Shown: positions 2,797 to 31,877 of the stretch, piece by piece | Position numbering within the stretch: position 1 is the stretch's first letter | Layout of the letters: every line of letters starts with the position of its first letter | NCBI GenBank assembly: GCA_016794525.1 | Contig: JAEUJY010000167.1 | Location: 1-64,000, forward strand | Reading direction: 5' to 3' | DNA: 64,000 bases | Source: Myxococcales bacterium | Lineage (GTDB): Bacteria; Myxococcota_A; Polyangia; Haliangiales; Haliangiaceae | The notes under the pieces: model-generated | What the model was told of the DNA's origin: nothing | Database searches by the model: none | Seen by the model: only the letters and a program-made list of their open reading frames with translations | Position numbers and translations under genes: made by a program

Positions 2797-4215
2797 ATGC
2801 GCCGTCTCGTCGTTCCCACTGTCCTCAGCGTCCTCGCCGGGACGCTCCTCACCGCCTGCCCGGACCGGTCGCTGTCCGAGGTAGAGCCGATCCCGGAGAA
2901 CGTCGAGAAGAAGACGATCCCGGTCAAGCTGAACCGCAACATCGACCTCCTGTTCGTGGTCGACAACTCGGGCTCGATGATCGAGGAGCAGGCGTCGCTG
3001 ACCGCCAACTTCCCGGCGTTCATCAACGTCCTCAACACGATCCAGGGCGGCCTCCCCGACGTCCACATCGGCGTCATCTCGACCAACGTCGGGACCGGCG
3101 GCGTCAACATCGGCGGCTGCAGCTCGGCGACGCGCGTCAACGGCGATGACGGCAACCTGCTGACCAACAACTGCGCGGGCCTCACGGCGGCGTACATCGA
3201 GGACATCAAGACGGCCTCGGGCACGCGCATGCAGAACTACTCGGGCGATCTCGCCACGCTGTTCGGCTGCATGGCCCGCCTCGGCACCAACGGCTGCGGC
3301 TTCGAGCAGCCCCTCGAGTCGGTGTACCGCGCGCTCCAGCCGGGCAAGAACGCCGGCTTCCTCCGCGACAACGCGATCCTCGCGGTCGTGATCATCTCCG
3401 ACGAGGACGACTGCTCGGCCAAGGACGGCGGCGCGCTGTTCGGTGACCCGAACGGCACGATCGCCTCGCCGCTCGGCCCGCGCACCTCGTTCCGCTGCCA
3501 CGAGTTCGGCGTGCAGTGCGACAACGATCCCAACCCGCGCGCCTTCGGCACCCGCACCGGCTGCGTGCCCCGCGCCAACGCGCAGTACATGAAGGACATC
3601 CAGCCGTACGTCGACTACCTGAAGGGCCTCAAGAGCGACCCGCAGAAGGTCGTCGTCGCCGGCATCATCGGCAACGTCGACGATCAGCGCACCGTGGTCA
3701 TCGGCGCCGACCCCGACGACACCACCCGCCCGATCGTCAACGCCTCGTGCTCGTCGGGCTCGGGCGTCGCGTTCCCGGCGTTCCGCACCAAGACCTTCCT
3801 CGAGTCGTTCCCCGAGCGCAACAGCATCACCACGATCTGCAACGACAACCTGACCGACGCGCTCACCGAGATCGCCGAGCTGGTCAAGCTGGTCGTCGGC
3901 AGCCCGTGCATCGACGCCGAGCTCTCGGACCGCAACGACGACCTGCCCGGCGTGCAGCCGGAGTGCTCGGTCGCCGACGTGACCGACCCCAACGGCCCGG
4001 GCCGCACCGAGACCGTCATCCCGTCGTGCGACGTGAGCGGCGGCGCCACCCCGTGCTGGCGCTTCATCTCGGACCCGATGAACTGCGCGATGGCGCCGAT
4101 GAACCGCGCGATCGAGGTCGACCGCGGCGGCGTGTCGGTGCCCGACGACACCGTCCTCGAGCTGCAGTGCGTGACCTGCACGCCGAACCCGAACGATCCC
4201 GGCGCGTGCCCGTGA
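2797..4215 (+). CDS. vWA-domain lipoprotein, first of three tandem paralogues
   Basis: 472 residues. The start is ATG at 2797, behind a GGAGG Shine-Dalgarno at 2787-2792; longer in-frame extensions have no signal peptide. Residues 1-21 are a lipoprotein signal ending TLLTAC, so Cys21 would be lipidated. A von Willebrand A domain follows with the metal site DNSGS (56-60) and a DEDDCS motif near 205 that both paralogues share. The rest is Cys-rich, suggesting a disulfide-stabilised surface protein. No enzyme motif is visible. Binding of an extracellular ligand or partner is inferred from the vWA fold. The gene is followed by a good terminator, so it is probably its own unit. Confidence 0.88.
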   Translation: MRRLVVPTVLSVLAGTLLTACPDRSLSEVEPIPENVEKKTIPVKLNRNIDLLFVVDNSGSMIEEQASLTANFPAFINVLNTIQGGLPDVHIGVISTNVGTGGVNIGGCSSATRVNGDDGNLLTNNCAGLTAAYIEDIKTASGTRMQNYSGDLATLFGCMARLGTNGCGFEQPLESVYRALQPGKNAGFLRDNAILAVVIISDEDDCSAKDGGALFGDPNGTIASPLGPRTSFRCHEFGVQCDNDPNPRAFGTRTGCVPRANAQYMKDIQPYVDYLKGLKSDPQKVVVAGIIGNVDDQRTVVIGADPDDTTRPIVNASCSSGSGVAFPAFRTKTFLESFPERNSITTICNDNLTDALTEIAELVKLVVGSPCIDAELSDRNDDLPGVQPECSVADVTDPNGPGRTETVIPSCDVSGGATPCWRFISDPMNCAMAPMNRAIEVDRGGVSVPDDTVLELQCVTCTPNPNDPGACP

Positions 4216-4252
4216 TCTAGCGAAGCTCCAGCATCCAACGGGGGATGCCCGG

Positions 4253-4285
4253 ACGGCTCGGCTCACGCCGGGCCGTTCGTCTTTT
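4253..4285 (+). terminator. Intrinsic terminator after the first vWA gene
   Basis: A ten-pair stem ACGGCTCGGC (4253-4262) / GCCGGGCCGT (4267-4276) with one G-U pair and a TCAC loop is followed by TCGTCTTTT (T-run 4282-4285). It lies 38 bases after the stop codon and ahead of the second vWA gene. Confidence 0.75.
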
Positions 4286-4323
4286 CGGTGACGGATGGCG
4301 GGGGCTGATGACACGCACGGGTC

Positions 4324-5673
4324 ATGCCCCACCGCGCCCCTCCCCTGCTCGCCGCCGCGGCGCTCCTCGCGGCGTGCGGCGGCGATCCCTCCACGCCGCC
4401 CCCCACCACCCCGACCGAGACGCTGGCGTTCCCGGCGATGCTCAACCGCGACATCGACATCCTGTTCGTCGTCGACGACTCGGGCTCGATGCTCGAAGAG
4501 CAGGCCGCGCTGGCGGCGGCGTTCCCCGAGTTCGTCGCGATGCTCGGCCGCATCGACGGCGGCGTCCCCAACGTCCACCTCGGCGTGGTGTCGACCAACG
4601 TCGGCACCGGCGGCGAGCCGATCGGCGGCTGCAGCACGGCGACCGAGCCCGACGGCGACGACGGCGCGCTGCTGACCGGGCAGTGCGCCGGGATCACGGA
4701 CAGCTTCCTCAGCGACCTGGCGCGGCCCGACGGCACCCGCGAGGTCAACTACACCGGCACCCTGGCCGATCAGTTCTCGTGCATCACCGCGCTCGGGGTC
4801 GGTGGCTGCGGCTACGAGCAGCCGCTCGAGGCGATGCGCCGCGCGCTGTCGCCCGGCCGCAACCTCGGCTTCCTGCGCCCCAACGCGGCGCTCGCGGTGG
4901 TGTTCGTCGGCGACGAGGATGACTGCTCTGCCAGCGACCCCGCGCTGTTCGGCGATCCCAACGCCGGCCCGGGGTCGCCGCTGGGCCCGCGCACGTCGTT
5001 CCGCTGCTTCGAGTTCGGTACCGTCTGCGACCCCGACGCCGACCCGCGCGCGTCCGGCACCCGCACCGCCTGTCGCTCACGCGAGGACTCGCCGTACCTG
5101 GCCTCGGTGGCGTCGTACACCGCGTTCTTGCGCGGGCTCAAGGCCGACCCCAGCCAGGTCGTCGTCACCTCGCTGATCGGCGCGGTCGACGACGCGCGCA
5201 CCGCGGTCGTCGGCCCCGATCCGAACCAGCCCGACGCGCCGGCGCTGCAGCCGTCGTGCACGTCGGATCGCGGCGTCGCGTACCCCGGCTTCCGCCTGGC
5301 CGACTTCACCGCGGCGTTCCACGGCACCAGCCGGTCGATCTGCGAGCCCACGTTCGCCGCGCCGCTCGGTACGTTCGCGGCGCGCATCACCACCGCGCTG
5401 GGCGTGCCGTGCTTCGAGCACGCGCTCAAGGACGCCGACGCCGCCGTGGCCGGCGTCCAGGCCACGTGCACCGTCACCGACCACGCGCGGACCACCGGCG
5501 CGACCGCCGCGGTGCCGGCGTGCGACGACGATCCCAGCGGCACCTGCTGGCGGATGGTCGCCGACGCCGCGCGCTGCCCGCTGGCGCCCGGCAACCTGCG
5601 GATCGCGATCGAGCGTCCCGGCGCCGCCGACCTCACCGGCGTCACCACCACCGCCAGCTGCGCGATCGAGTAG
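4324..5673 (+). CDS. vWA-domain lipoprotein, second tandem paralogue
   Basis: 449 residues. The lipoprotein signal ends LLAAC (Cys18), followed by a Pro/Thr linker and a vWA domain with the metal site DDSGS (51-55). It keeps the paralogue-specific landmarks: NVGTGG, GCGYEQPLEA, DEDDCSASD, the GPRTSFRC segment and a Cys-rich C-terminal part. The match to the first copy runs the full length, so these are duplicated genes and not only shared domains. It starts 39 bases after the terminator of the upstream gene. Surface-exposed and of unknown ligand. Confidence 0.87.
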   Translation: MPHRAPPLLAAAALLAACGGDPSTPPPTTPTETLAFPAMLNRDIDILFVVDDSGSMLEEQAALAAAFPEFVAMLGRIDGGVPNVHLGVVSTNVGTGGEPIGGCSTATEPDGDDGALLTGQCAGITDSFLSDLARPDGTREVNYTGTLADQFSCITALGVGGCGYEQPLEAMRRALSPGRNLGFLRPNAALAVVFVGDEDDCSASDPALFGDPNAGPGSPLGPRTSFRCFEFGTVCDPDADPRASGTRTACRSREDSPYLASVASYTAFLRGLKADPSQVVVTSLIGAVDDARTAVVGPDPNQPDAPALQPSCTSDRGVAYPGFRLADFTAAFHGTSRSICEPTFAAPLGTFAARITTALGVPCFEHALKDADAAVAGVQATCTVTDHARTTGATAAVPACDDDPSGTCWRMVADAARCPLAPGNLRIAIERPGAADLTGVTTTASCAIE

Positions 5674-19213: not shown

Positions 19214-20176
<963 letters not shown>

Positions 20177-20269
20177 GGCGCAAGTGTGTCGCGGATTCGC
20201 GGCAGCGTCCGAGAAAACCGCGTACATTCTGTCGCAAATCGCGGTCGCCCGACCGAATCGCCGCCACCG

Positions 20270-20764
20270 ATGGTCGCGGCGCGGCACCCGGCGCCCCGTA
20301 CGCCCCGTCCGCCACCGTCGCCCGCCGCCGCTCCGACGGTGGCGCGGGCTGGTACGGCGGTTGCTCTACGGCTGGCCGTGCCCGCGGCGCCGCGCCCCAC
20401 CGCTCCCACCGTCCTGGTGGTGACCCGCTCGTCGCAGGCGAGCGAGGTCGGCCGCTACCTGGACGAGGCCGGGTTGCCGGCGCAGGTCGCGGCCAGCGTG
20501 CCGGCGCCGAGCCGGCTGGCGCCCGGCGTCACCGCGGTCGTGGTGTTCCCCGACGATCTGCCGCTGGCGATGGCGGCGATGCTCAAGCTGCGGCGCGCGC
20601 GCAAGGCGCTGCTGCTGCTGCTGGTCACCAGCCACCCCGGGCGCTACCAGCCGCTCACCGCGCTGGCGCCCGACACCACCACGCTCCTGCCGGCGCCGGC
20701 GTTCGGCTGGCACCTCGTCGACGAGATCCGTCGCCACCACGGCGCCATCGGACGGTCGCCATGA
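20270..20764 (+). CDS. Pseudo-receiver-like protein leading the complex-I-like operon
   Basis: 164 residues from ATG at 20270; a shorter start is possible. After a Pro/Ala-rich stretch (1-45), TVLVVTRSSQASEVGRYLDE begins an alternating beta/alpha segment similar to a response-regulator receiver. A strand VVVFPDD stands where the phospho-acceptor Asp strand would be and LLLLLVTSHP at the Thr strand. The conserved Lys and the N-terminal acidic pair are not evident, so it probably is not phosphorylated. Its stop overlaps the next start (ATGA). Being first in the operon suggests a regulatory or assembly role. Confidence 0.6.
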   Translation: MVAARHPAPRTPRPPPSPAAAPTVARAGTAVALRLAVPAAPRPTAPTVLVVTRSSQASEVGRYLDEAGLPAQVAASVPAPSRLAPGVTAVVVFPDDLPLAMAAMLKLRRARKALLLLLVTSHPGRYQPLTALAPDTTTLLPAPAFGWHLVDEIRRHHGAIGRSP

Positions 20765-22734
20765 CCGCGTTGTTGCTGGCGATCCCGGTGCTCCTGGCCG
20801 GCGTGGTGCTGGCCACCGCGCTGCCCGGCCGCACCGTCAAGTTCGCGGCGGCGGTCGGCTCGCAGGCGGTGGCCGCCGCGCTGGTGCTGTGGACGGTGGT
20901 GCCGGTGCTCGCCGGCCGCCCCGCGGTGCTCGATCACACCTACGCGTGGTCGTACCCGTTCGAGGACATCCGGGTCCACGTCGACGCGCTCGCTGCGTTC
21001 TTCCTGGTGTGGTCGCTGCCGCTCACGCTGCTGGGCACGATCTACGCGCGCGGCTACCTGGCGCGCGCGGTCGACGAGGGGCGCGACCCCGGCCCGCACT
21101 TCGCGCTGCTCAACCTGGTCGCGCTGTCGTTCGTCGTCGTCTACACCGTGCAGAACGCGCTGGTGTTCCTGCTCGGCTGGGAGACCGCGGCGGTGTCGGC
21201 GTGGCTCCTGGTCATCTGGGACTACCGCAGCCAGAAGATCCGCTTCGCCGGCTTCAACTACCTGGTGTCGACGCACATCGGGCTGTTCGTGCTGGTCGCG
21301 GCGTTCATGCTGATGCACAGCCGCACGCAGTCGATGGACTTCGCCAGCTTCGCGACCGTGCTGGCCCAGCCCGGCGAGCTGCGCGACGGCGTGTTCGTGC
21401 TGCTGGCGGTGGCGTTCGCGCTCAAGGCCGCGTTCTTCCCGATGCACACCTGGCTGCCGCGCGCCCACGCCGCCGCGCCGGCCCACGTCTCGGCGCTGAT
21501 GTCGGGCGTGATCCACAAGGCCGGCCTGTTCGGCCTGCTGCGGTTCCTGCTGTACCTCGGGCGCCCCGACGAGTGGATGGGCTGGGCGATCCTGGTGTTC
21601 GGCTTGTTGTCGGCGCTGTTCGGCGTGCTGTCGACCGCCGCGCAGCGCGACCTCAAGCGCCTGCTCGGCTACTCGTCGACCGAGAACGTCGGCATCGCCG
21701 CGGTCGGCTTCGGGCTGGGTTGCCTGGGCCTCACGTGGCAGCAGCCGGCGCTGGTGGTCGCGGGCTTCGGCGGCGGCGTCTTCCACCTGTTCAACCACGC
21801 GCTGTTCAAGTGCCTCCTGTTCTACGCCGCCGGGGCGATCTACCGCGCCACCCACTCGGTCGATCTCGAGCGGCTGGGCGGGCTGGCCCGCGCGATGCCG
21901 TGGACCGCCGCGCTGTTCTTGATCGGCGGCCTGGCGATCGCCGGGCTGCCGCCGCTCAACGGCTTCTGGAGCGAGTTCCTGGTGATCGGCGGGCTGGCCG
22001 GCGGCGGCGCGCCGAGCGCGCTGGGCAACGTCGCGCTGGCGGTGGCGGCCGCGCTGCTCGGGTTCGTCGGCGCGACCAGCGCGCTCGCGGTGACCCGCGC
22101 GTTCGGGATGGCGTTCCTCGGCACGCCGCGCGATCCCAAGGTGCACACCGCCGACCCGCCGGCCTCGATGCGCGGCGTCATGGTCGCGCACGCGGTCGGC
22201 GTGATCGCGGTCGGGCTGGTGCCGACGCTGGGCCTGGCGCTGGTGCAGCCGGTGGTGGCGCAGTTCACCGCCGGCGTCGCCGACGCGCCGACCACCGCGT
22301 CGCGGCTCACCGACGTCCAGCACGGCGTCTGGATCGCCGTCGCGATCGCCGCCGCCACCGTCGGGGCCGGCGTCGCGCTGGCGCGGCGGGTCCGGCGCCA
22401 CGTGACCTGGGGCTGCGGCTACACCGTCGCGACGCCGCGCCTGCAGTACACCGCGACCTCGTTCTCGGCGCTGTTCAACCGGCTGTTCGAGGTGGTGCTG
22501 CCGTCGCGGCAGCGCGGCAGCCTGCCCAAGGACGTGTTCCCGACCAAGCACGGCAACCTCGAGATCGATCACGCCGATCCGGTCGAGGGCCGGATGTTCG
22601 AGGTGCTGGCGCAGAACGAGGAGATGGCGGTCAAGGTCTCGCAGCGGGTGCCCGACCGGCCGCGGCTGTCGCTGGGCCTGGGCCTGGCCGTGCTGGTGGC
22701 GCTGGTGGTGCTGGCGCTGGGAGGCCGCGCGTGA
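20761..22734 (+). CDS. Complex I/Hyf-type antiporter-like membrane subunit (HyfB/NuoL family)
   Basis: 657 residues with about 14-16 predicted membrane helices. It belongs to the Mrp-antiporter/NuoL-HyfB family that moves protons or sodium. The conserved glutamate sits in LLGWETAAVSAW (about 140), and the lysine and His helices appear in FALKAAFFPMHTWLP and SALMSGVIHKAG. The polar C-terminal part has a CGYTVATPRLQYT segment, as in HyfB. The gene is joined to both neighbours by four-base overlaps, so the subunits are made together. Cation specificity cannot be told from sequence. Confidence 0.9.
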   Translation: MTALLLAIPVLLAGVVLATALPGRTVKFAAAVGSQAVAAALVLWTVVPVLAGRPAVLDHTYAWSYPFEDIRVHVDALAAFFLVWSLPLTLLGTIYARGYLARAVDEGRDPGPHFALLNLVALSFVVVYTVQNALVFLLGWETAAVSAWLLVIWDYRSQKIRFAGFNYLVSTHIGLFVLVAAFMLMHSRTQSMDFASFATVLAQPGELRDGVFVLLAVAFALKAAFFPMHTWLPRAHAAAPAHVSALMSGVIHKAGLFGLLRFLLYLGRPDEWMGWAILVFGLLSALFGVLSTAAQRDLKRLLGYSSTENVGIAAVGFGLGCLGLTWQQPALVVAGFGGGVFHLFNHALFKCLLFYAAGAIYRATHSVDLERLGGLARAMPWTAALFLIGGLAIAGLPPLNGFWSEFLVIGGLAGGGAPSALGNVALAVAAALLGFVGATSALAVTRAFGMAFLGTPRDPKVHTADPPASMRGVMVAHAVGVIAVGLVPTLGLALVQPVVAQFTAGVADAPTTASRLTDVQHGVWIAVAIAAATVGAGVALARRVRRHVTWGCGYTVATPRLQYTATSFSALFNRLFEVVLPSRQRGSLPKDVFPTKHGNLEIDHADPVEGRMFEVLAQNEEMAVKVSQRVPDRPRLSLGLGLAVLVALVVLALGGRA

Positions 22735-23654
22735 TCACCGTCGCGATCGTCGCCGCCCACGTCGCCGCGCTGGTGGCGTGGCCGATCTTGCTGGTCGGCA
22801 TCGTCAACCGCGTCAAGGCGCGCTGGGCCGGACGCCGCGGCCCGCCGCTGTGGCAGCTGGGCTTCGATCTGTGGCGGCTCGTGCGCAAGGACGTCGTGCG
22901 CAGCACGACCAGCACCGCGGTGTTCGCGATCGCGCCGTGGATCGTGCTGGCCAGCGCGCTCGCCGCCAGCCTGGTGGTGCCGCTCGCGGGCCCGGCGCCG
23001 CTCGGCTTCCGCTTCGACTTCCTGCTGCTCATCTACCTGTGGGGTCTGGGCCGGCTGGCGCTGATGCTGGGCGCGCTCGACACCGGCAGCCCGTTCGAGG
23101 GCATGGGCGCGAGCCGCGAGGCGACGTTCGGCGCGCTGCTCGAGCCGGCGCTGGTGCTGGTGCTGATCGCGCTGGCCGCCGCGACCCACGGCGCCAGCCT
23201 GGCCGAGGCGCTGGCGACCCGCCCCGACGATCCCCAGGCCGCGCCGGTGTGGATCGCGGCGATCGTCGCGCTGCTGGTGGTGATCCAGGTCGAGGGCGCG
23301 CGCATGCCGGTCGACGATCCGACGACGCACCTCGAGCTGACGATGATCCACGAGGTGATGATCCTCGATCACAGCGGGCCCGACCTGGCGGCGGTGCAGG
23401 CCGGCGCGGCGGTCAAGCTCGCCACCGCGTGCGCGCTGGTCGCCAACCTGATCAACCCGGTGCCGGCCGACGCCGGCCGGCTGGCGGTCGCCGGCGGCCT
23501 GCTCGCCGCCAGCGTCGGCGTGGCGCTGGTGATCGGCGCGGTCGAGGCGACGGTCGCGCGCCTGCGCCTGCGCGCGGTGCCGCAGTACATCCTGATCGCG
23601 GTGGTGGCCAGCATGGTGGCGGTGCTGGCGACGCGGTGGCGGGGGCTGGCATGA
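22731..23654 (+). CDS. Complex I subunit 1-type membrane anchor (HyfC/NuoH family)
   Basis: 307 residues starting from GTG at 22731 inside the upstream stop (GTGA). About eight membrane helices. NuoH-family marks are GSPFEGMGASREATFG (about 115-130) and the VEGARMPVDDPTTHLELTMIHE loop, which carries the acidic residues that face the quinone/iron-sulfur interface in complex I. It anchors the hydrophilic arm to the membrane and lies at the start of the ion pathway. Confidence 0.92.
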   Translation: MITVAIVAAHVAALVAWPILLVGIVNRVKARWAGRRGPPLWQLGFDLWRLVRKDVVRSTTSTAVFAIAPWIVLASALAASLVVPLAGPAPLGFRFDFLLLIYLWGLGRLALMLGALDTGSPFEGMGASREATFGALLEPALVLVLIALAAATHGASLAEALATRPDDPQAAPVWIAAIVALLVVIQVEGARMPVDDPTTHLELTMIHEVMILDHSGPDLAAVQAGAAVKLATACALVANLINPVPADAGRLAVAGGLLAASVGVALVIGAVEATVARLRLRAVPQYILIAVVASMVAVLATRWRGLA

Positions 23655-24262
23655 GCACCGCGCTGGTGGTCTTCGTGCTGGTGCTGCTGCTGCCGCTGTT
23701 CCTGGCGTCGTGGCGGGTCAGCCTGGTCGGCCTGGCCGGCCAGGGCGCGCTCATGGCGTGGCTGGCCTACGATCGGGACGGCGTGACCACGGTCGCCGAC
23801 GGCGTGCGGCTGGTGGACCTGGGGCTGGTGCGGACGCTGATCGTGCCGGTCGCGCTGTACCGCGTGATGGCCGCGCGCAACACCGGCCCGCGCAACGACG
23901 TCATCGCGCCCAACCTGGTGTCGTGGACGCTGGCGTTGACCGCGGTGCTGGTCGGGTTCCGGTTCGCGGCCCACATGCCGCTGCCCGACAGCGAGCGGCC
24001 GTTCGTCGCCGCGGCGGCGTCGGCGCTGCTGCTGGCCATGCTGGTGCTGGCGTCGAGCGAGCGGGTGTTCAGCCAGGTGGTCGGCGTGTTTCGCTTCGAG
24101 AACGCGCTCGCGCTGTTCGAGCTGTCGCGCCCCGAGCCCGAGGCCGAGCCCGCCTTCCGCGTCGGCCTGCTGGTCGTGCTGGTCGTGACGCTGGCGCTCG
24201 CGCGCTGGTACCTGCGCACGCTGACGCCGGCCGGGGACGCCCCGGCGCCGGAGGCCTCGTGA
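23651..24262 (+). CDS. HyfE-type (NuoK-like) membrane subunit
   Basis: 203 residues, about six membrane helices, coupled by ATGA to the previous gene and by GTGA to the next. Size and position between the NuoH-like and the second antiporter-like subunit match HyfE of hydrogenase-4-type complexes. The conserved NuoK glutamates are not obvious; the segment FRFENALALFELS carries two candidate acidic residues in a helix. Identification is mainly by position. Confidence 0.8.
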   Translation: MSTALVVFVLVLLLPLFLASWRVSLVGLAGQGALMAWLAYDRDGVTTVADGVRLVDLGLVRTLIVPVALYRVMAARNTGPRNDVIAPNLVSWTLALTAVLVGFRFAAHMPLPDSERPFVAAAASALLLAMLVLASSERVFSQVVGVFRFENALALFELSRPEPEAEPAFRVGLLVVLVVTLALARWYLRTLTPAGDAPAPEAS

Positions 24263-25677
24263 ATCCGGCGCTGTGGCTGCTGGCGCCGCTGGCGTTCCTG
24301 GTCGTGATCGGCCCGGGGCGCCGCCACAACGCGCTGGCGCTGGTGGCGGCCGCCACCGTCGAGGTGATCGTCGCGACGGTGATCGCGATCGGCGACGTCG
24401 ACACCGGCGCCGACGACCTGCTCACCACCGACGCCACCGCGCGGCTGTTCCTGCTGGTCATCGACTGGGCGTTCGTCGGCGTCGTGGTCTACGCGTGGAA
24501 CCGCGCGCGCGTCGACGCGGCGCGCCCGGAGGCCAGCGCCCGCCGCGCCTACCTGGGCATCGCGTTCCTGGTGGCGATGAACGTCGTCGTGATCGCCAAC
24601 CACGTGCTGCTGGCGTGGCTGGCGCTCGAGGTGACCAGCCTGACCGCGGCGCCGCAGATCACCCAGGCCAGCCTGCCCGGCTCGCGCGGCGCGGCGTGGC
24701 GCTACCTGGTGTTCTCGATCGTCGGGCTGGGCCTGGCCTCGCTCGGCTTCTGGTGCCTGGGCCACGGCGGCGCCGACGGAGCCCACGCGTCGATGCGCTT
24801 CGACGTGCTCGCACACACGCCGGCGCCCGCCGACGACCCGTGGCGGGACCTGGGCTTCGCGCTGCTGGTGCTGGGCCTGGGCACCAAGCTCGGCCTGGCG
24901 CCGATGTACTCGTGGCTGCCCGAGACCTACGACGAGGCGCCGGCGGCGATCACCGCGATGTTGGCGGCGGTGCAGTTCAACGGCACGCTGGTGCTGCTGG
25001 TGCGCGTGCTGCAGATCCCCGGCGCCCGCGCCGGGGTCGCCGGCGACGCGCTGCTGGTGCTGGGCCTGGCGTCGATGGCGGTGTCGGCCGGCAGCATCCT
25101 CGCCACCCGCAACGTCAAGCGGCTGGTCGCCTACGCGTCGATCAACCACGCCGGCGTGATCGCGATCGGCCTGGGCCTCGGCGGCGAGGCCGCGTACGGC
25201 GTGCTGCTCTACGCGGTGTCCAACGCGTTCATCAAGGCGATCTTGTTCCTGTCGATCGGCCACATCGAGCAGCACTACCAGACCAAGCAGATGCGCGACG
25301 TCGGCGGGCTGATCAAGGACCTGCCGTACACCGGCCTGTTCCTGATGGTCGGCACGTTCGCGCTGCTCGGCTTCCCGCCGTTCGGGAGCTTCCTCGGCGA
25401 GCTCTTGATCCTGTCGGCGCTCGCGGCCTCGGGCCAGATGCTGGTGTTCGCCGGCTTCTGCGCGGTGATCGCGACGACCTTCATCGCCACCGGCCGCTCG
25501 GTGTTCCCGATGATCTGGGGCGAGTCGCGGATCAAGGCCACCTGGCACCGCCAGCGCCTGCTGCCGCACCTGCCCAAGCTGGTGCTGTTGATCGCGCTGG
25601 TGATGATGGGCCTGTACCTGCCGACGTCGGTCAACACGCTGTTCCGCGAGGTCGCGGCGTCGATGGGGTCGCGATGA
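24259..25677 (+). CDS. Second antiporter-like subunit (HyfF/NuoN family)
   Basis: 472 residues from GTG at 24259, with about 13-14 membrane helices. The antiporter-family glutamate is in LLAWLALEVTSLTAAPQ, and the conserved lysines are in LGLGTKLGLAPMYSWLPETYDEAP and NAFIKAILFLSIGHI. The conserved fifth-helix Glu/Lys pairs therefore look functional. Together with the larger HyfB-like subunit it would give the complex two ion-translocating modules plus the NuoH/NuoK-like connection. Confidence 0.9.
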   Translation: MNPALWLLAPLAFLVVIGPGRRHNALALVAAATVEVIVATVIAIGDVDTGADDLLTTDATARLFLLVIDWAFVGVVVYAWNRARVDAARPEASARRAYLGIAFLVAMNVVVIANHVLLAWLALEVTSLTAAPQITQASLPGSRGAAWRYLVFSIVGLGLASLGFWCLGHGGADGAHASMRFDVLAHTPAPADDPWRDLGFALLVLGLGTKLGLAPMYSWLPETYDEAPAAITAMLAAVQFNGTLVLLVRVLQIPGARAGVAGDALLVLGLASMAVSAGSILATRNVKRLVAYASINHAGVIAIGLGLGGEAAYGVLLYAVSNAFIKAILFLSIGHIEQHYQTKQMRDVGGLIKDLPYTGLFLMVGTFALLGFPPFGSFLGELLILSALAASGQMLVFAGFCAVIATTFIATGRSVFPMIWGESRIKATWHRQRLLPHLPKLVLLIALVMMGLYLPTSVNTLFREVAASMGSR

Positions 25678-27140
25678 GCGCGCTGGTGGTCCACGCGGTC
25701 GCGCTCGACGAGCTGCCGGTGCTCGAGCCGCGGGCCTGGCGCAACTGGGTCAAGGGCGAGCTGTTGCAGGGCAGCCGGCCGGTGATGCTGTGGGGCCGCC
25801 GGGTCGACGCCGGCGTCGAGGTGTCGGTCGCGCTGCAGCGCGCCGACCGCGGGCTCGACGTGCTGCGCACGACCGTCGATCCGGCCCACGGCTACTTCGC
25901 GCTGACCGAGGTGGCGCTGGCGCTGCACGGCTGCGAGCGCGAGCTGCACGAGACGCTGGGCGTGCGCCTGACCGGCCACCCGTGGCTCAAGCCGCTGCGC
26001 CACCACGGCCAGACCCAGGCCGAGATGGCTGCCTATCCGTACTACCGCCTCGACGGCAAGTGCGTCCACGAGGTCGCGGTCGGCCCGATCCACGCCGGCG
26101 TGATCGAGCCAGGCAGCTTCCGCTTCCAGTGCAGCGGCGAGCTGGTCCACCACCTCGAGATCCAGCTCGGCTACCAGCACCGCGGCGTCGAGGCGCTGCT
26201 GGATCGCGGCGATCCGCGGCGCGCGGTGCCGCTGGTCGAGACGATCGCCGGCGACGCCAGCGTGGCCCACGCGTGGGCGACCTGCGCCGCGCTCGAGCGG
26301 CTGGCCGGCGTGACGCTGGCGCCCGAGGTCGAGCTGGCCCGCGCGACGCTGCTCGAGCTCGAGCGGGTGGCGATGCACCTCGCCGGCCTGGCCGGGCTGG
26401 CCACCGACGTCGGCTTCGTGCCGGGCGCGTCGACCTACGGCCGGCTGCGCACGACCGCGATCAACACGACGATGCGGCTGTGCGGCAGCCGGTTCGGCCG
26501 CGGCGCGCTGCACCCGGGTGGCGTCGCGATCACGCCCGACCCGGCGGCGGTCGCGGCAGCGGTCGCGCTGCTCACCGCGCACGGCGCCACCGCCGACGCG
26601 TGCTTCTTCGGGTCGCGCGTGGTCCAGCACCGCCTGCAAGGCGTCGGCGCGCTGACCACCGCGCAGGCGCAGCAGATCGGCCTGGTCGGCCCCGCGGCGC
26701 GCGCGTGCGGCGTCGCGCTCGATCAGCGCGAGGGCGCCGGCGGCGCGTACGCCGCGCGGCCGATCGCCGTGACCACCGAGCCGAGCGGCGACTGCTGGGC
26801 GCGCGCGCGCATGCGCGGCCGCGAGCTGACGGCATCGCTGGCCTGGCTGGCCGACGCGGCGCCGGCGCTGACCGCGGTGCCGGCGCGGCAGCCGCCCGGC
26901 CAACCGGTCGGCGCGCTGGCCCCGTCGCACCTGGTGCTGGCGCTGGCCGAGAGCTGGCGCGGCGAGGTCGTGCACGCGCTCGAGACCGACGCCGCCGGGC
27001 GCGTCGTCCGCCACAAGGTGCAGGACCCGTCGCTGCGCAACTGGCTCGGCCTCGCGCTCGGCATGCGCGACAACGAGATCTCCGACTTCCCGATCTGCAA
27101 CAAGAGCTACGACCTCTCCTACTGCGGGAACGACCTCTGA
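25674..27140 (+). CDS. NiFe-hydrogenase/NuoCD-like large subunit lacking the Ni-Fe ligands
   Basis: 488 residues: an N-terminal NuoC/HycE-N-like part (about 1-115) followed by a NuoD/hydrogenase large-subunit domain. In real group 4 hydrogenases the first ligand motif is R-x-C-G-x-C; here the aligned place reads ETIAGDASVAHAW (AGDA at 192-195). The C-terminal D-P-C-x-x-C motif is replaced by DFPICNKSYDLSYCGNDL, whose two Cys (475 and 484) are too far apart to form the motif. So no Ni-Fe centre can form and it should not be called a hydrogenase. The NKS...LSY..ND tail recalls the Ehr group between complex I and hydrogenases. Its substrate is unknown. Confidence 0.85.
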   Translation: MSALVVHAVALDELPVLEPRAWRNWVKGELLQGSRPVMLWGRRVDAGVEVSVALQRADRGLDVLRTTVDPAHGYFALTEVALALHGCERELHETLGVRLTGHPWLKPLRHHGQTQAEMAAYPYYRLDGKCVHEVAVGPIHAGVIEPGSFRFQCSGELVHHLEIQLGYQHRGVEALLDRGDPRRAVPLVETIAGDASVAHAWATCAALERLAGVTLAPEVELARATLLELERVAMHLAGLAGLATDVGFVPGASTYGRLRTTAINTTMRLCGSRFGRGALHPGGVAITPDPAAVAAAVALLTAHGATADACFFGSRVVQHRLQGVGALTTAQAQQIGLVGPAARACGVALDQREGAGGAYAARPIAVTTEPSGDCWARARMRGRELTASLAWLADAAPALTAVPARQPPGQPVGALAPSHLVLALAESWRGEVVHALETDAAGRVVRHKVQDPSLRNWLGLALGMRDNEISDFPICNKSYDLSYCGNDL

Positions 27141-27889
27141 TGTGGAAGCTGCTGCAGCTGCGACGCGAGCAAGGCCGGCAGGCGATCCCCGACCTGCGCG
27201 CCGCGCGGCCCGAGGGCTTCCGCGGGCTGCCGGTGATCGCCACGACGCCGTGCGCCGATGGCTGCCGCGCGTGCGTCGACGTGTGCCCGACCGCGGCGAT
27301 CACCGCACCGCCGGTGCGCCTCGATCTCGGCCGCTGCACGCTGTGCGGCGCGTGCGCGCCGGCGTGCCCCACCGGCAAGATCGCGTTCACGCCCGAGGTC
27401 GCGATGGCCGCCAGCCGCCGCGACGACCTGGTGGTCACCGAGGGCCCGCCGCGCGTCCCCGAGGTCGACATCGGCGCCGCGCTGCGGCGGCGGTTCGGAC
27501 GCTCGCTCAAGCTGCGGCAGGTGTCGGCCGGCGGCTGCAACGGCTGCGAGCTCGAGCTCAACGCGCTGGCCAACGTCAACTTCGACATCGGCCGCCACGG
27601 CATCGAGTGGGTCGCGTCGCCGCGCCACGCCGACGCGCTGGTGGTGAGCGGCCCGATCACCCGGACGATGGCCGACGCGGTCCAGCTAGCCTGGGACGCG
27701 ATGGCCGAGCCGCGCTTCGTGATCGCGGTCGGCGCGTGCGCGATCTCCGGTGGCCTGTACGACGGCGCGCCCGGCGTCGACCGCGGCTTCTTCGACCGCC
27801 AGCCGCCGCTGATCTACGTCCCCGGTTGCCCGCCCCACCCGCTCACGATCGCCCGCGCCCTGCTCGCCGCGCTGGCGCGCGAGCGCTAG
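27140..27889 (+). CDS. Fused ferredoxin (NuoI/HyfH-like) and NuoB/HyfI-like iron-sulfur subunit
   Basis: 249 residues; the ATG overlaps the upstream TGA by one base. The N-terminal half has two [4Fe-4S] motifs: Cys38-x3-Cys42-x2-Cys45-x3-Cys49 (first gap one residue longer than usual) and Cys66-x2-Cys69-x2-Cys72-x3-Cys76. The C-terminal half is NuoB/HyfI-like with all four cluster ligands (Cys133, Cys136, Cys200, Cys230 in GGCNGCELEL, VGACAISGG, VPGCPPHP). Two subunits that are separate in complex I and Hyf are thus one chain. It would pass electrons between a soluble partner and the large subunit. It is the last gene of the operon. Confidence 0.9.
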   Translation: MWKLLQLRREQGRQAIPDLRAARPEGFRGLPVIATTPCADGCRACVDVCPTAAITAPPVRLDLGRCTLCGACAPACPTGKIAFTPEVAMAASRRDDLVVTEGPPRVPEVDIGAALRRRFGRSLKLRQVSAGGCNGCELELNALANVNFDIGRHGIEWVASPRHADALVVSGPITRTMADAVQLAWDAMAEPRFVIAVGACAISGGLYDGAPGVDRGFFDRQPPLIYVPGCPPHPLTIARALLAALARER

Positions 27890-28863
27890 CTCCGCTTCTT
27901 GCGGCGGACGACCTTGTTCAGGCGCTCGGTCTGCAGGCGCAGCGCGCGGCGCAGGCCCTGGCGACCACCGACCGCGCCCAGGCCCATGCCGTACATCTCG
28001 TCGATGCCGCGCACCGCGACCGTCCACATCGTCACCAGGATGGCCAGGTCGGCGGCGGCGCGGCGGGTCGACGCCGCCGGGATCACCAGACCGTAGGCTT
28101 CGGACACGAAGCGCAGGTTGCGCAGGATCTTGACGATGCCGTCGCGGTCGATGTCGCCGTGCCAGTAGACGACGCGCGAGACGATCAGCTCCTGGTGGCG
28201 GCGCAGGAACTCGGCCATCGAGATCGGGTTGGTGATGCGGCCGGCCGGCTTGCAGATCTCGAGCAGGTCCTCGAGGTACTCGTTCCAGTACAGCGCCAGG
28301 CTGCGGTTCTCGGGCCGGCGCAGGAACTTGATGCGGTCGATCGAGAAGTCGGCCTTCACCGGCGCGCGGAACCGCGGCTGGATGGCGTGCAGGTCGTACA
28401 GCACCGGCGGCTTCTCGCGATCGAAGTCGACGTCGTCGTAGTGCCAGCGCGCGCGCAGCTGGGCCCAGGTGTGGATGGTCAGCACCGGGTCTTGCTCGGA
28501 GTCGATCACCAGGAACCGGTTGCCCTCCACGCCGACCACGGTGATCCAGTGCGTCCACTCGTCCACGCACAGCAGCACCGGCACCTGATCGTCGCGCAGC
28601 AGCTTGATCAGCCGCTTGCGCGCCTCTTCGGCGTGCCGCGACCGCTCGAGCACCAGATCGCAGTCGAACGAGCGCGCCGCGCGAGCGAGGCGGATCTCGT
28701 TGGTCCCGCTCCACCAGTGCGTGCGCGCGGTCTGCGCGATCTCGCTGGCGTGCACGGTGCGACCGAGCGCGACCAGCGCGTGCTTGAGCGCGAATGGACC
28801 GCACGTCCACTCGTTGGGCTGAGGGTAGAAACCGGGGCGATGAGCGAGGGTCTGCGTGGCCAT
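27886..28863 (-). CDS. C39-like papain-fold peptidase domain protein
   Basis: 325 residues, no signal peptide. The N-terminal half has the papain-like triad in order: Cys21 in NEWTCGPFALKHAL, His105 in WTHWITVVG and Asp121 in FLVIDS, as in C39 (bacteriocin-processing type) and related peptidases or transglutaminase-like proteins. The C-terminal half is helical, basic at the end (RLNKVVRRKKRS), with no membrane or ABC domain. It converges with the complex-I-like operon, the two stop codons overlapping by four bases. Substrate unknown; peptidase activity is inferred from the triad. Confidence 0.72.
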   Translation of the reverse strand: MATQTLAHRPGFYPQPNEWTCGPFALKHALVALGRTVHASEIAQTARTHWWSGTNEIRLARAARSFDCDLVLERSRHAEEARKRLIKLLRDDQVPVLLCVDEWTHWITVVGVEGNRFLVIDSEQDPVLTIHTWAQLRARWHYDDVDFDREKPPVLYDLHAIQPRFRAPVKADFSIDRIKFLRRPENRSLALYWNEYLEDLLEICKPAGRITNPISMAEFLRRHQELIVSRVVYWHGDIDRDGIVKILRNLRFVSEAYGLVIPAASTRRAAADLAILVTMWTVAVRGIDEMYGMGLGAVGGRQGLRRALRLQTERLNKVVRRKKRS

Positions 28864-29156: not shown

Positions 29157-29963
29157 TCACAGCGGCCAGTTTTCGCCCGCTACCACCGCCTCGGCCCCCA
29201 GTCCCTGGCCGTGGAGCTGGTCGATCATGACCGCGCACGACGGGCACGGATCGAGCGCGGCGCCGGCCGCGAAGAACGGATCGTCACCGCTCGCCTCGCA
29301 CCGGATCGAGCCCGGCCCCAGCGCGGCGAGCGCCTCGCGCAGCTGTGCACCCGAGAGCGCGCCCGGCGCGACCTGCGATCGACGCTCGCAGCTCGCGAGG
29401 TAGTGCGAGAGGCCGCGCGGCAGCGGACACGCGCCAGCGGGCGCGCCGCCCGGCAGCAGCCGATCGCGCGTCACCGCCTGCACCCACGCGACGTAGTACG
29501 CGCCGAAGTCGCGCGCGATCGGGCGCAGCGCGCCATCGGCGCCGCGCGCGTCGATCCACACCTCGCCCGCGTGCGCGCCGCGCACGATCAGCAGCGCGAT
29601 CTGACCGCAGCCCACGTGCCCCAGCCCGATCACGCCCTGGTACGCCGCGCGGCCGGGCGCGGTGGGCGCGAACACGCCGGCCGCGATCGCGCGCTGCAGC
29701 GGATGCGCGAGCGGCCACAGGCCGTAGTACGGCCCGGCGCCGCCATCGCCCAGGGTGGTGACGAAGGCGCGGTAGGCCGCGGGCAGCGCGCCACCGCTCG
29801 CGGCCTCGAACGCGTCGACCGTCGCGGCCGCCAGCGGCGCGCCGAGCTGGTAGCGATGCCGCGCGGCGCCGAAGCGGCGACGCCGCGGGTCCGCGGCCGC
29901 GGTCGCGGTCAGCCACGCCGCCAGCGTGGGCGCCAGCGCCTCGAGCGTGTCGTCGCGGTCCAT
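29157..29963 (-). CDS. SMI1/KNR4 (SUKH) family protein
   Basis: 268 residues from ATG at 29963; the upstream extension is Arg-rich and follows a TTGACA -35 element that would be cut by a longer gene. The SUKH pattern is seen in TVDAFEAASGGALPAAYRAF (acidic helix, Leu-Pro-x-x-Tyr) and the following Gly-rich YYGLWPL turn. Members often act as immunity proteins against contact-dependent toxins, and others have unrelated roles. A C-terminal CPSCAV pair may bind metal or form a disulfide. No toxin gene lies beside it, so an immunity role is unsupported here. Confidence 0.72.
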   Translation of the reverse strand: MDRDDTLEALAPTLAAWLTATAAADPRRRRFGAARHRYQLGAPLAAATVDAFEAASGGALPAAYRAFVTTLGDGGAGPYYGLWPLAHPLQRAIAAGVFAPTAPGRAAYQGVIGLGHVGCGQIALLIVRGAHAGEVWIDARGADGALRPIARDFGAYYVAWVQAVTRDRLLPGGAPAGACPLPRGLSHYLASCERRSQVAPGALSGAQLREALAALGPGSIRCEASGDDPFFAAGAALDPCPSCAVMIDQLHGQGLGAEAVVAGENWPL

Positions 29964-30104
29964 CGCCCTGAGGTCGCAGGTCGCGCCCGAGGTGTCAAGG
30001 CGACGCGCGGCGGCCACCCGACGCGCGCCGGGGCGGGCCCGCAAGGCCGCGTCGCAGCAGGAACTTCAACCCGCTCCAGGTTCTGGGCTATCGTGCGCCG
30101 GCTC

Positions 30105-31877
30105 ATGCGGTACGTCGACGAGCTCACCGATGCGGTGCGGTCGCAGCTCGCGCTGGCCTACGGCATCAAGGACCAGCTCGGCAGCGCGCTGCGGGCGCGG
30201 ATGCGCGAGGGCTACTCGCTGGCCGACCTGCGCGCCGACGCCCGCGCCGGCCTCGCGGTGGCGCTGCTGGCGGTGCCGCTGGCGATGGCGCTAGCCCGGA
30301 CCACCGGCGTCGCGCCCCAGCACGGCCTGTACACCGCGATCATCGCCGGCATCGTCGTGTCGCTCCTGGGCGGCAGCCGGCTGCAGATCACCGGCCCGAC
30401 CGCCGCCTTCGTGGTGATCCTCGAGCCGATCGTCGCGCGCCACGGGCTCGGCGGCGTGCTGGTCGCCGGGCTGATGGCCGGCGCGATCCTGGTGCTGATG
30501 GGCGTGGCGCGGCTCGGCAAGCTGATGCAGTTCCTGCCCCACCCCGCGACCACCGGCTTCACGACCGGGATCGCGGTGGTGCTGGTCGTGCTGGCGGGGC
30601 GCGACGCGCTGGGCGTCGACCTCGCCGGCCGCCCGAGCGGCACGATCGAGGTGATCGGCGCGCTGTGGGACGCGCGCGCGCAGGCCCATGCCTGGGACGC
30701 GGCGTTGTTCGGCGTGACGCTCGTGCTGTTGATCGCGCTGCCGCGCATCCACCGGCGCATCCCGGCGCCGCTGGTGGCGCTGACCGCCGCGGCGCTGCTC
30801 GCGGTGGTGGCCAGCCACCTGCTCGACGGCTTCCACGCCCGCACGATCGGCTCGACCTTCGCGACCGTGATCGACGGCGAGCGGGTGCGCGGCATCCCGC
30901 CGCTGCCGCCGCTGCCGGTGTGGCCGTGGCGGCTGGGCGACGCCACCGGCTCGGCGTTCGCGATCGACTACGCGCTGATCCGCGAGCTCTTGCCCGCCGC
31001 GTTCGCGATCGCGATGCTGGGCGCGATCGAGACGCTGATGTCGGCGGTGATCGCCGACGGCATGGCCGGCACCAAGCACGACCCCAACGCCGAGCTGATC
31101 GCGCTCGGCATCGGCAACATGGTGTGCCCGTTCTTCGGCGCGATCGCCTGCACCGGCGCGCTGGCCCGCACCGCGACCAACGTCCGGGCCGGGGCGCGGT
31201 CGCCGCTGGCCGCGGTGATCCAGGCGCTGGTGGTGCTGGGCGCGACGATCGCGCTGGCGCCGCTGATGGCGTACCTGCCGCTGGCGGCGCTGGCGGCGCT
31301 GGTGCTGGTGTTCGCCGGCGCGATGGTCGAGGCGCGCCACGTCGTCCGGCTGATCCGCATCGCGCCGCGCAGCGACGTGCTGGTGCTGGTGACCTGCTTC
31401 GCGCTGACCGTGCTGGTCGACATGGCGCTGGCGGTGTCGGTCGGCGTGATGCTGGCCGCGCTCCTGTTCATGCGGCGGATGGCGGCGCTGACCAAGATCA
31501 CGCTCGACACCGACGTCGCCGAGCGGCTGCAGATGCCGCCCGGCATCCGGCTCTACGAGATCGCCGGCCCGATGTTCTTCGGCGCCGCCAACAAGGCGAT
31601 GGAGATCCTCGACACCGTCGGCACCGACGCCCGGGTCGTGATCCTGGCGATGAAGCGGGTCGACGTGATGGACGCCACCGGGCTGATCGCGCTGGAGTCG
31701 ACGCTCGATCGCCTGAACCGCAGCGGCCGGATGGTGATCCTCGCCGGCCTGGCGCCCGAGCCGGCGGCGCTGCTCGAGCGCGCCGGCATCAAGCGCGTCC
31801 CCGACCGGCTGGCGATCGCCCCCGACCTCGACACCGCGGTCAGCATGGCGATCGTCCACACCGCCCGCGCGAGCTGA
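30105..31877 (+). CDS. SulP-family anion transporter with STAS domain
   Basis: 590 residues. About 12-14 membrane helices (about 45-440) form the SulP core; VAPQHGLYTAIIAGIV and ITGPTAAFVVI match the substrate-site helices TM1 and TM3. A cytoplasmic STAS domain ends the protein (about 465-585) with KRVDVMDATGLIALE. SulP proteins move sulfate, bicarbonate or C4-dicarboxylates; the ion cannot be told. The start is ATG at 30105, ten bases after a TATCGT hexamer (30089-30094). No partner genes. Confidence 0.9.
   Translation: MRYVDELTDAVRSQLALAYGIKDQLGSALRARMREGYSLADLRADARAGLAVALLAVPLAMALARTTGVAPQHGLYTAIIAGIVVSLLGGSRLQITGPTAAFVVILEPIVARHGLGGVLVAGLMAGAILVLMGVARLGKLMQFLPHPATTGFTTGIAVVLVVLAGRDALGVDLAGRPSGTIEVIGALWDARAQAHAWDAALFGVTLVLLIALPRIHRRIPAPLVALTAAALLAVVASHLLDGFHARTIGSTFATVIDGERVRGIPPLPPLPVWPWRLGDATGSAFAIDYALIRELLPAAFAIAMLGAIETLMSAVIADGMAGTKHDPNAELIALGIGNMVCPFFGAIACTGALARTATNVRAGARSPLAAVIQALVVLGATIALAPLMAYLPLAALAALVLVFAGAMVEARHVVRLIRIAPRSDVLVLVTCFALTVLVDMALAVSVGVMLAALLFMRRMAALTKITLDTDVAERLQMPPGIRLYEIAGPMFFGAANKAMEILDTVGTDARVVILAMKRVDVMDATGLIALESTLDRLNRSGRMVILAGLAPEPAALLERAGIKRVPDRLAIAPDLDTAVSMAIVHTARAS

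Follow-up and report, generated by a model that had tools for sequence, protein, structure and literature searches.

Our study concerns a six-gene operon in a 64-kb window (the whole stretch of DNA analysed, positions 1 to 64,000 of contig JAEUJY010000167.1) from the 9.8 Mb genome of a Myxococcales bacterium. Among named genomes the closest is "Kofleriaceae bacterium Gw_SlAct_bin_340" (Myxococcota), which encodes a large subunit 78-79% identical to that of the window. The large-subunit gene, fifth in a run of six on the + strand whose neighbours overlap by a few bases, encodes a relative of complex I and group 4 hydrogenase large subunits that has lost the ligands of the Ni-Fe site. We assign the complex to the Ehr family (energy-converting hydrogenase-related complexes), following the definition of Marreiros et al. 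2013 (PMID 23000657) as given in papers that cite it. The operon comprises the following genes:

20761..22734, + strand: HyfB/NuoL-like antiporter subunit, 657 aa (NCBIfam hydrogenase 4 subunit B, 1.2e-131; alignment and conservation across the family)
22731..23654, + strand: HyfC/NuoH-like membrane anchor, 307 aa (Pfam NADHdh, 1.5e-30), with an Ehr-specific loop between transmembrane helices (TMH) 5 and 6, DDPTTHLELTMIHEVMILDHSG
23651..24262, + strand: HyfE-like membrane subunit, 203 aa (23% identity to E. coli HyfE; position; same place in 69 relatives)
24259..25677, + strand: HyfF-like antiporter subunit, 472 aa (NCBIfam hydrogenase 4 subunit F, 8.3e-63)
25674..27140, + strand: Ehr large subunit, 488 aa, an N-terminal NuoC-like part fused to a NuoD/HycE-like part, without Ni-Fe ligands
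27140..27889, + strand: 2x[4Fe-4S] ferredoxin-like domain fused to a NuoB/HycG-like small subunit, 249 aa (Pfam Fer4, Oxidored_q6)

The gene set and order match those of 70-80 relatives, and the antiporter-like, NuoH-like, NuoB-like and NuoI-like parts that characterize Ehr complexes all lie in this one operon. The small-subunit fusion, which was aligned with HycG and NuoB, has cluster cysteines at positions 38, 42, 45, 49, 66, 69, 72 and 76 and at 133, 136, 200 and 230, all kept in relatives; the latter four, the proximal-cluster ligands, follow the hydrogenase-type CxxC arrangement, whereas complex I has two cysteines side by side.

The large-subunit reading frame is open over its entire length, with AGDA at 192-195 and cysteines at 475 and 484. 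Alignment with E. coli HycE and HyfG places A192-G-D-A195 at the first ligand pair, CGIC (HycE C241/C244), and S482 and G485 at the second, DPCYSC (HycE C531/C534). This agrees with a preliminary description of the sequence, which had noted AGDA where group 4 hydrogenases have CGxC and concluded that the protein cannot be a hydrogenase: all four ligand positions are substituted. The same description took two C-terminal cysteines to stand in place of the second CxxC; both are present, but to read them as a kept motif is misleading, as they lie off the ligand positions: HycE has an Ile opposite C475 and, opposite C484, the Ser that separates its two ligand cysteines. Among 101 homologues C475 is kept in 99, while position 484 is Cys in 87, Ala in 8 and Ser in 6 and is therefore no obligatory ligand; a loosened CxxC at C475/C484 is thus ruled out. 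CGxC occurs in none of the 101, one of which has a single unrelated CVLC. The protein ends at G-x-D-L, where HycE runs about 30 residues further, and its relatives end alike; it therefore lacks a C-terminal extension for a maturation protease. We looked for CxxC pairs that a frame correction might restore and found none, and a frame or sequencing error is ruled out by a same-genus genome, which has the same sequence at 79% identity. The absence of Ni-Fe ligands from this large subunit is therefore confirmed.

In a tree of 72 sequences the 34 Ehr rows group together behind a branch supported at 100/99, and every CxxC-bearing row and the complex I rows fall outside this clade, so that placement within the catalytic hydrogenases can be discounted. 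The window large subunit belongs to a subclade (support 100/100) made up of Myxococcota and betaproteobacteria, and a scan of named genomes returned at least 584 relatives in many phyla. The large subunit is homologous to those of group 4 hydrogenases and has neither CxxC motif, as is characteristic of Ehr; this, and its position in a supported CxxC-less clade apart from hydrogenases and complex I, makes the assignment of the operon to the Ehr family near certain. The family has been described under this name and its function called unknown (PMC10284858, PMC6349859, PMC12342949, PMC10432482), with published carriers that include Nitrospira, Melainabacteria, Margulisbacteria and ammonia-oxidising archaea. 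A literature search for the combination of hydrogenase-4-like and CxxC gave no match. What is new here is the conservation of the pocket, the loop motif, the lack of a conserved partner dehydrogenase, the co-occurrence with PFOR and the sigma-54 promoter; the Ehr family itself is already published.

Two divergent CxxC-less large subunits lie beside Ehr in the tree, L125/L152 (G185) and L027/L153 (G110); both have a THLELTMIHE-like loop, L027 has no CNKS tail, and they may represent further unnamed Ehr-like groups. Separately, three HycE-like large subunits (L118, L119 and L120, from G218, G178 and G180) contain in-frame TGA codons exactly at the first Ni-Fe ligand motif (e.g. AERI*GI*GYIHS), which reads U-G-I-U in L118 and L120 and U-G-I-C in L119 when TGA is taken as U. 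This suggests one or two selenocysteines in these group 4 hydrogenase large subunits.

The site vacated by the Ni-Fe ligands is highly conserved across the family. G193-D194, C475-N-K-S and the fixed C-terminal end, with the tail pattern CNKSxxLSYxGxDL in the pocket, are near-invariant in the 101 homologues, which come from many phyla, and H140, I144, E145, R170, G193, D194, N476, K477, S478, L481, S482, Y483, G485 and D487 are identical in all of them. In HycE the residues E193, R478, H284, E437 and R395 form the proton route to the Ni-Fe site (PMC9474812); their counterparts E145, R429 and H235 are kept in 101/101, E384 in 100/101 and R343 in 98/101. The canopy residue Asp529 of HycE corresponds to D480 here and is mostly Asn across the family. 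The residues that hold the quinone head group in complex I are replaced throughout, Nqo4 H38 by I144 and Y87 by G193 (101/101). With the Ni-Fe ligands and the quinone His/Tyr gone and the relay kept, both known chemistries have been lost and proton delivery retained. Judged by this conservation, the pocket is rebuilt, not decayed. The predicted fold of the large subunit has a mean predicted local distance difference test score (pLDDT) of 88.6 and, among solved structures, matches HycE most closely (Z 40.6, 472 residues, root-mean-square deviation 2.6), with complex I chains next.

The elements of an ion pump are also preserved. The HyfB/NuoL-like subunit keeps the proton-channel residues E141, K222, K253 and E405 and the HyfF-like subunit E124, K210, K326 and E381; the TM5 Glu, TM7 Lys and TM12 Glu are present in both and conserved across the family. 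The preliminary description had reported the membrane arm, the NuoH-like anchor and the NuoB-type cluster ligands as retained, and all three are indeed in place, but the coupling loop of the anchor has changed. In complex I, MBH, MBS and formate hydrogenlyase (FHL), the TMH5-6 loop is one of those connecting active site and pump (PMC7684303, PMC9474812). In the window it reads PVDDPTTHLELTMIHEVMILDHSG, in contrast to the PFDxxEAEQEL type of NuoH, HycD and HyfC, and the motif DDPxTHLELTMIHE is present in about 71 of 73 relatives. A loop of this type is absent from all four hydrogenase loci with a readable loop (L149, L150, L151 and L154); a close form occurs in two outlying CxxC-less loci (L152 and L153). 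On these comparisons the putative NuoH-type coupling loop is replaced in Ehr by a family motif, a feature newly described here.

In a survey of 80 loci that took in flanking DNA of at most 10 kb, conservation around the large subunit is confined to the five other operon genes; no partner dehydrogenase is conserved there. At genome level a 2-oxoacid:ferredoxin oxidoreductase (POR_N) is found in 29 of 30 Ehr genomes. In a sample of 141 Myxococcota genomes (22 with Ehr, 119 without; the statistics ignore kinship), NifJ-type pyruvate:ferredoxin oxidoreductase (PFOR) occurs in 18/22 Ehr-positive and 26/119 Ehr-negative genomes (p 1.2e-7). The association of Ehr with Rnf is weaker (p 0.048), as is that with classical [NiFe] hydrogenases (5/22 against 7/119, p 0.02), and Rnf is missing from 12 of the 18 genomes with both Ehr and PFOR, among them the window genome and its sister. 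In view of the PFOR association and of the 2x[4Fe-4S] domain fused to the small subunit, ferredoxin is the likeliest electron carrier.

From this analysis, we propose that Ehr here is a minimal ion pump of the complex I superfamily, ferredoxin-linked and with a proton-coupled acceptor site that is neither Ni-Fe nor canonical quinone, a reading to which we give a little less than an even chance. Soluble ferredoxin would exchange electrons at the fused 2x[4Fe-4S] domain, from which they would reach the proximal cluster (C133/C136/C200/C230). Protons would arrive through E145 and the R429/H235/E384/R343 relay, and both could then react with the acceptor in the pocket that A192-G-D-A195 and the CNKSxxLSYxGxDL tail make up. 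Changes in the pocket may be transmitted through the THLELTMIHE loop to the membrane arm and so power the movement of ions; running the other way, the complex could use ion flow to yield reduced ferredoxin. The ferredoxin and non-quinone parts of this model are put forward as hypotheses. The case for a non-quinone acceptor draws on the distribution of the family. In a number of carriers, among them Gastranaerophilales, Elusimicrobia and some Omnitrophota, no MenD or MqnC match reaches or approaches the cut-off, and two Ehr genomes have no UbiA-family protein at all. According to a published study, Melainabacteria with a six-subunit complex of the Ehr kind have neither quinones nor a respiratory chain, and its authors suggested that the complex may reduce ferredoxin using the ion gradient (PMC3787301). 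The pocket is uniform across the family, these carriers included, which favours a shared non-quinone acceptor.

Several points weigh against this proposal. MenD is over the cut-off in the window's own organism, and many of the genomes are metagenome-assembled, so quinone genes that seem absent may only be missing from the assembly. In the predicted structure the two loops of the pocket score below 50 in pLDDT, which precludes placing a ligand there. NifJ is missing from 4/22 Ehr-positive genomes and POR_N from 1/30; PFOR may merely mark an anaerobic life style, in an association that disregards kinship; and the role of ferredoxin is one that we infer from domain content and co-occurrence.

Because the window organism encodes quinone synthesis genes, a quinone acceptor is the main rival. 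The complex would then be a ferredoxin:menaquinone oxidoreductase, with the same electron entry and pump, that binds the quinone non-canonically in the old Ni-Fe pocket. Several UbiA-family proteins accompany MenD in both the window genome and its sister, the NuoD-like part as a whole resembles chains of quinone-reducing complex I in fold (Z 36-39), and R429 stands where complex I has its Lys/Arg canopy residue. Set against this are the replacement of both head-group residues by I144 and G193 in every homologue and the occurrence of the same pocket in lineages without detectable quinone synthesis (PMC3787301, PMC6349859), and we consider menaquinone a serious candidate, though less likely than the reading proposed above. 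Electrons might instead come from a formate dehydrogenase, as in formate hydrogenlyase, and pass to another acceptor. This has been put forward for Margulisbacteria and Saganbacteria (PMC6349859), and the operon is hyf-like, with probable sigma-54 control resembling that of hyf/hyc. Yet no formate dehydrogenase gene is conserved near Ehr in the 80 loci, the FdhA type is over the cut-off in just 11/30 carriers and has no match at 1e-60 in 14/30, and the operon has no HycB/HyfA-type linker subunit; formate dehydrogenase is not supported as a general partner, and we judge such a pathway improbable.

The archaeal sulfane reductase MBS offers a further precedent, in which sulfane sulfur would be reduced at the proximal [4Fe-4S] cluster. 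MBS likewise lacks Ni-Fe ligands and both quinone residues and reduces polysulfide at the cluster (PMC7684303), and C475 is near-invariant in the Ehr pocket. Against this, MBS is described as requiring no protons and having no proton pathway (PMC7684303), while Ehr keeps one; all four proximal-cluster cysteines are conserved in Ehr; and MBS chains match only weakly. The chance of an MBS-like activity is accordingly slight, a shade below that of the formate route. Least credible is a decayed or non-functional hydrogenase, or one with other metal ligands. A common stock with group 4 hydrogenases would be in keeping with it, but the six-gene operon is intact, the new pocket is near-invariant over many phyla, no cysteine stands at any ligand position, there is no extension for a maturation protease, and expression of Ehr in Nitrospira moscoviensis is not raised by H2 (PMC12342949); we give this explanation almost no weight. 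The suggestion of the preliminary description, an Ehr-like complex that may couple another redox reaction to ion transport, finds support in the ligand positions, the tree, the operon and the literature. In our main proposal of a ferredoxin-linked, non-quinone pump, the acceptor is most likely the same for all members of the family, which speaks against a respiratory quinone. More broadly, Ehr could add a further terminal chemistry to the complex I superfamily, as a ferredoxin-linked ion pump in which a proton-coupled reaction takes place in the rebuilt Ni-Fe pocket, on a substrate other than H+, quinone or sulfane sulfur, and which serves aerobes and quinone-less fermenters across many bacterial phyla. 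We hold this broader view tentatively, and with less assurance than the narrower proposal.

Upstream of the operon lie three features that bear on its regulation:

19214..20287, - strand: divergent sigma-54 activator, AAA and Fis-type helix-turn-helix (HTH) domains, in an FhlA/HyfR-like position (Pfam Sigma54_activat, 3.6e-63; HTH_8)
20350..20365, + strand: sigma-54 -24/-12 promoter-like site, TGGTACGGCGGTTGCT, the sole match with 1 mismatch in the 64-kb window
20378..20764, + strand: small receiver-like open reading frame, with a 4-base overlap with the start of the next gene and an uncertain start codon

The sister genome (L038) has the same divergent activator gene (3600-4583, - strand) and beside it, at the aligned position, a perfect TGGCACGTCGGTTGCT. 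The activator is the probable regulator of the operon, which in this genus is probably under sigma-54 control. The receiver-like frame lies between the promoter and hyfB, is conserved in L038 and has no Pfam family at E<=1. The sigma-54 site is not a family-wide feature: beyond the two Kofleriaceae there are merely 2-mismatch sites, which are little informative. At 34 of the 80 loci (e.g. L090:4226-4984) an HTH/phosphotransferase system (PTS) EIIA-like fusion regulator, assigned from one representative checked by Pfam and absent here, lies just upstream of the operon; it is the only recurrent extra neighbour, and a link between Ehr expression and PTS signalling is possible at these loci. Downstream of the operon in the window are a 325-aa gene (27889-28863, - strand) weakly similar to C39-type cysteine peptidases and a SulP-type transporter with a STAS domain (29475-31877, + strand).

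A comparison with known systems places the operon among published Ehr complexes, with which it shares the group 4-like large subunit without CxxC pairs, the antiporter-like subunits, the NuoH-like anchor, the ferredoxin and NuoB parts and a separate clade adjoining the group 4 hydrogenases; the sigma-54 promoter, divergent activator and upstream receiver-like frame set this genus apart. With E. coli Hyf/Hyc it has in common the gene order B-C-E-F-G-I, the proton relay, the antiporter residues and regulation of the sigma-54 type, but it has no Ni-Fe ligands, HyfA, HyfD or maturation protease gene in the operon, HyfH and HyfI are fused, and the loop is THLELTMIHE in place of the EAEQEL type. Respiratory complex I (NuoCD/NuoB/NuoH/NuoL,M,N) has the same fold, a membrane arm with ion-channel Glu/Lys and the proximal cluster; Ehr differs in having no NADH module or quinone His/Tyr, hydrogenase-type CxxC cluster ligands and two antiporter-like subunits only. 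Pyrococcus MBS is likewise a complex I relative that has lost Ni-Fe chemistry and has neither quinone residue. Ehr has lost all four hydrogenase cysteines and MBS two, and Ehr keeps the proton relay; in MBS one Fe of the proximal cluster is not ligated by cysteine, whereas the four predicted cluster cysteines of the Ehr small subunit are conserved.

Ehr complexes occur in many phyla, in aerobes and fermenters alike. The Ehr pocket corresponds to the site of quinone reduction in complex I and of H2 formation in hydrogenases, and its substrate would therefore inform our understanding of coupling across the superfamily. Our analysis narrows the question to a probable ferredoxin carrier, to the pocket invariants E145, D194, C475, N476, K477 and Y483, and to a family-specific coupling loop, while probable sigma-54 control in Kofleriaceae hints at regulated use of the complex.

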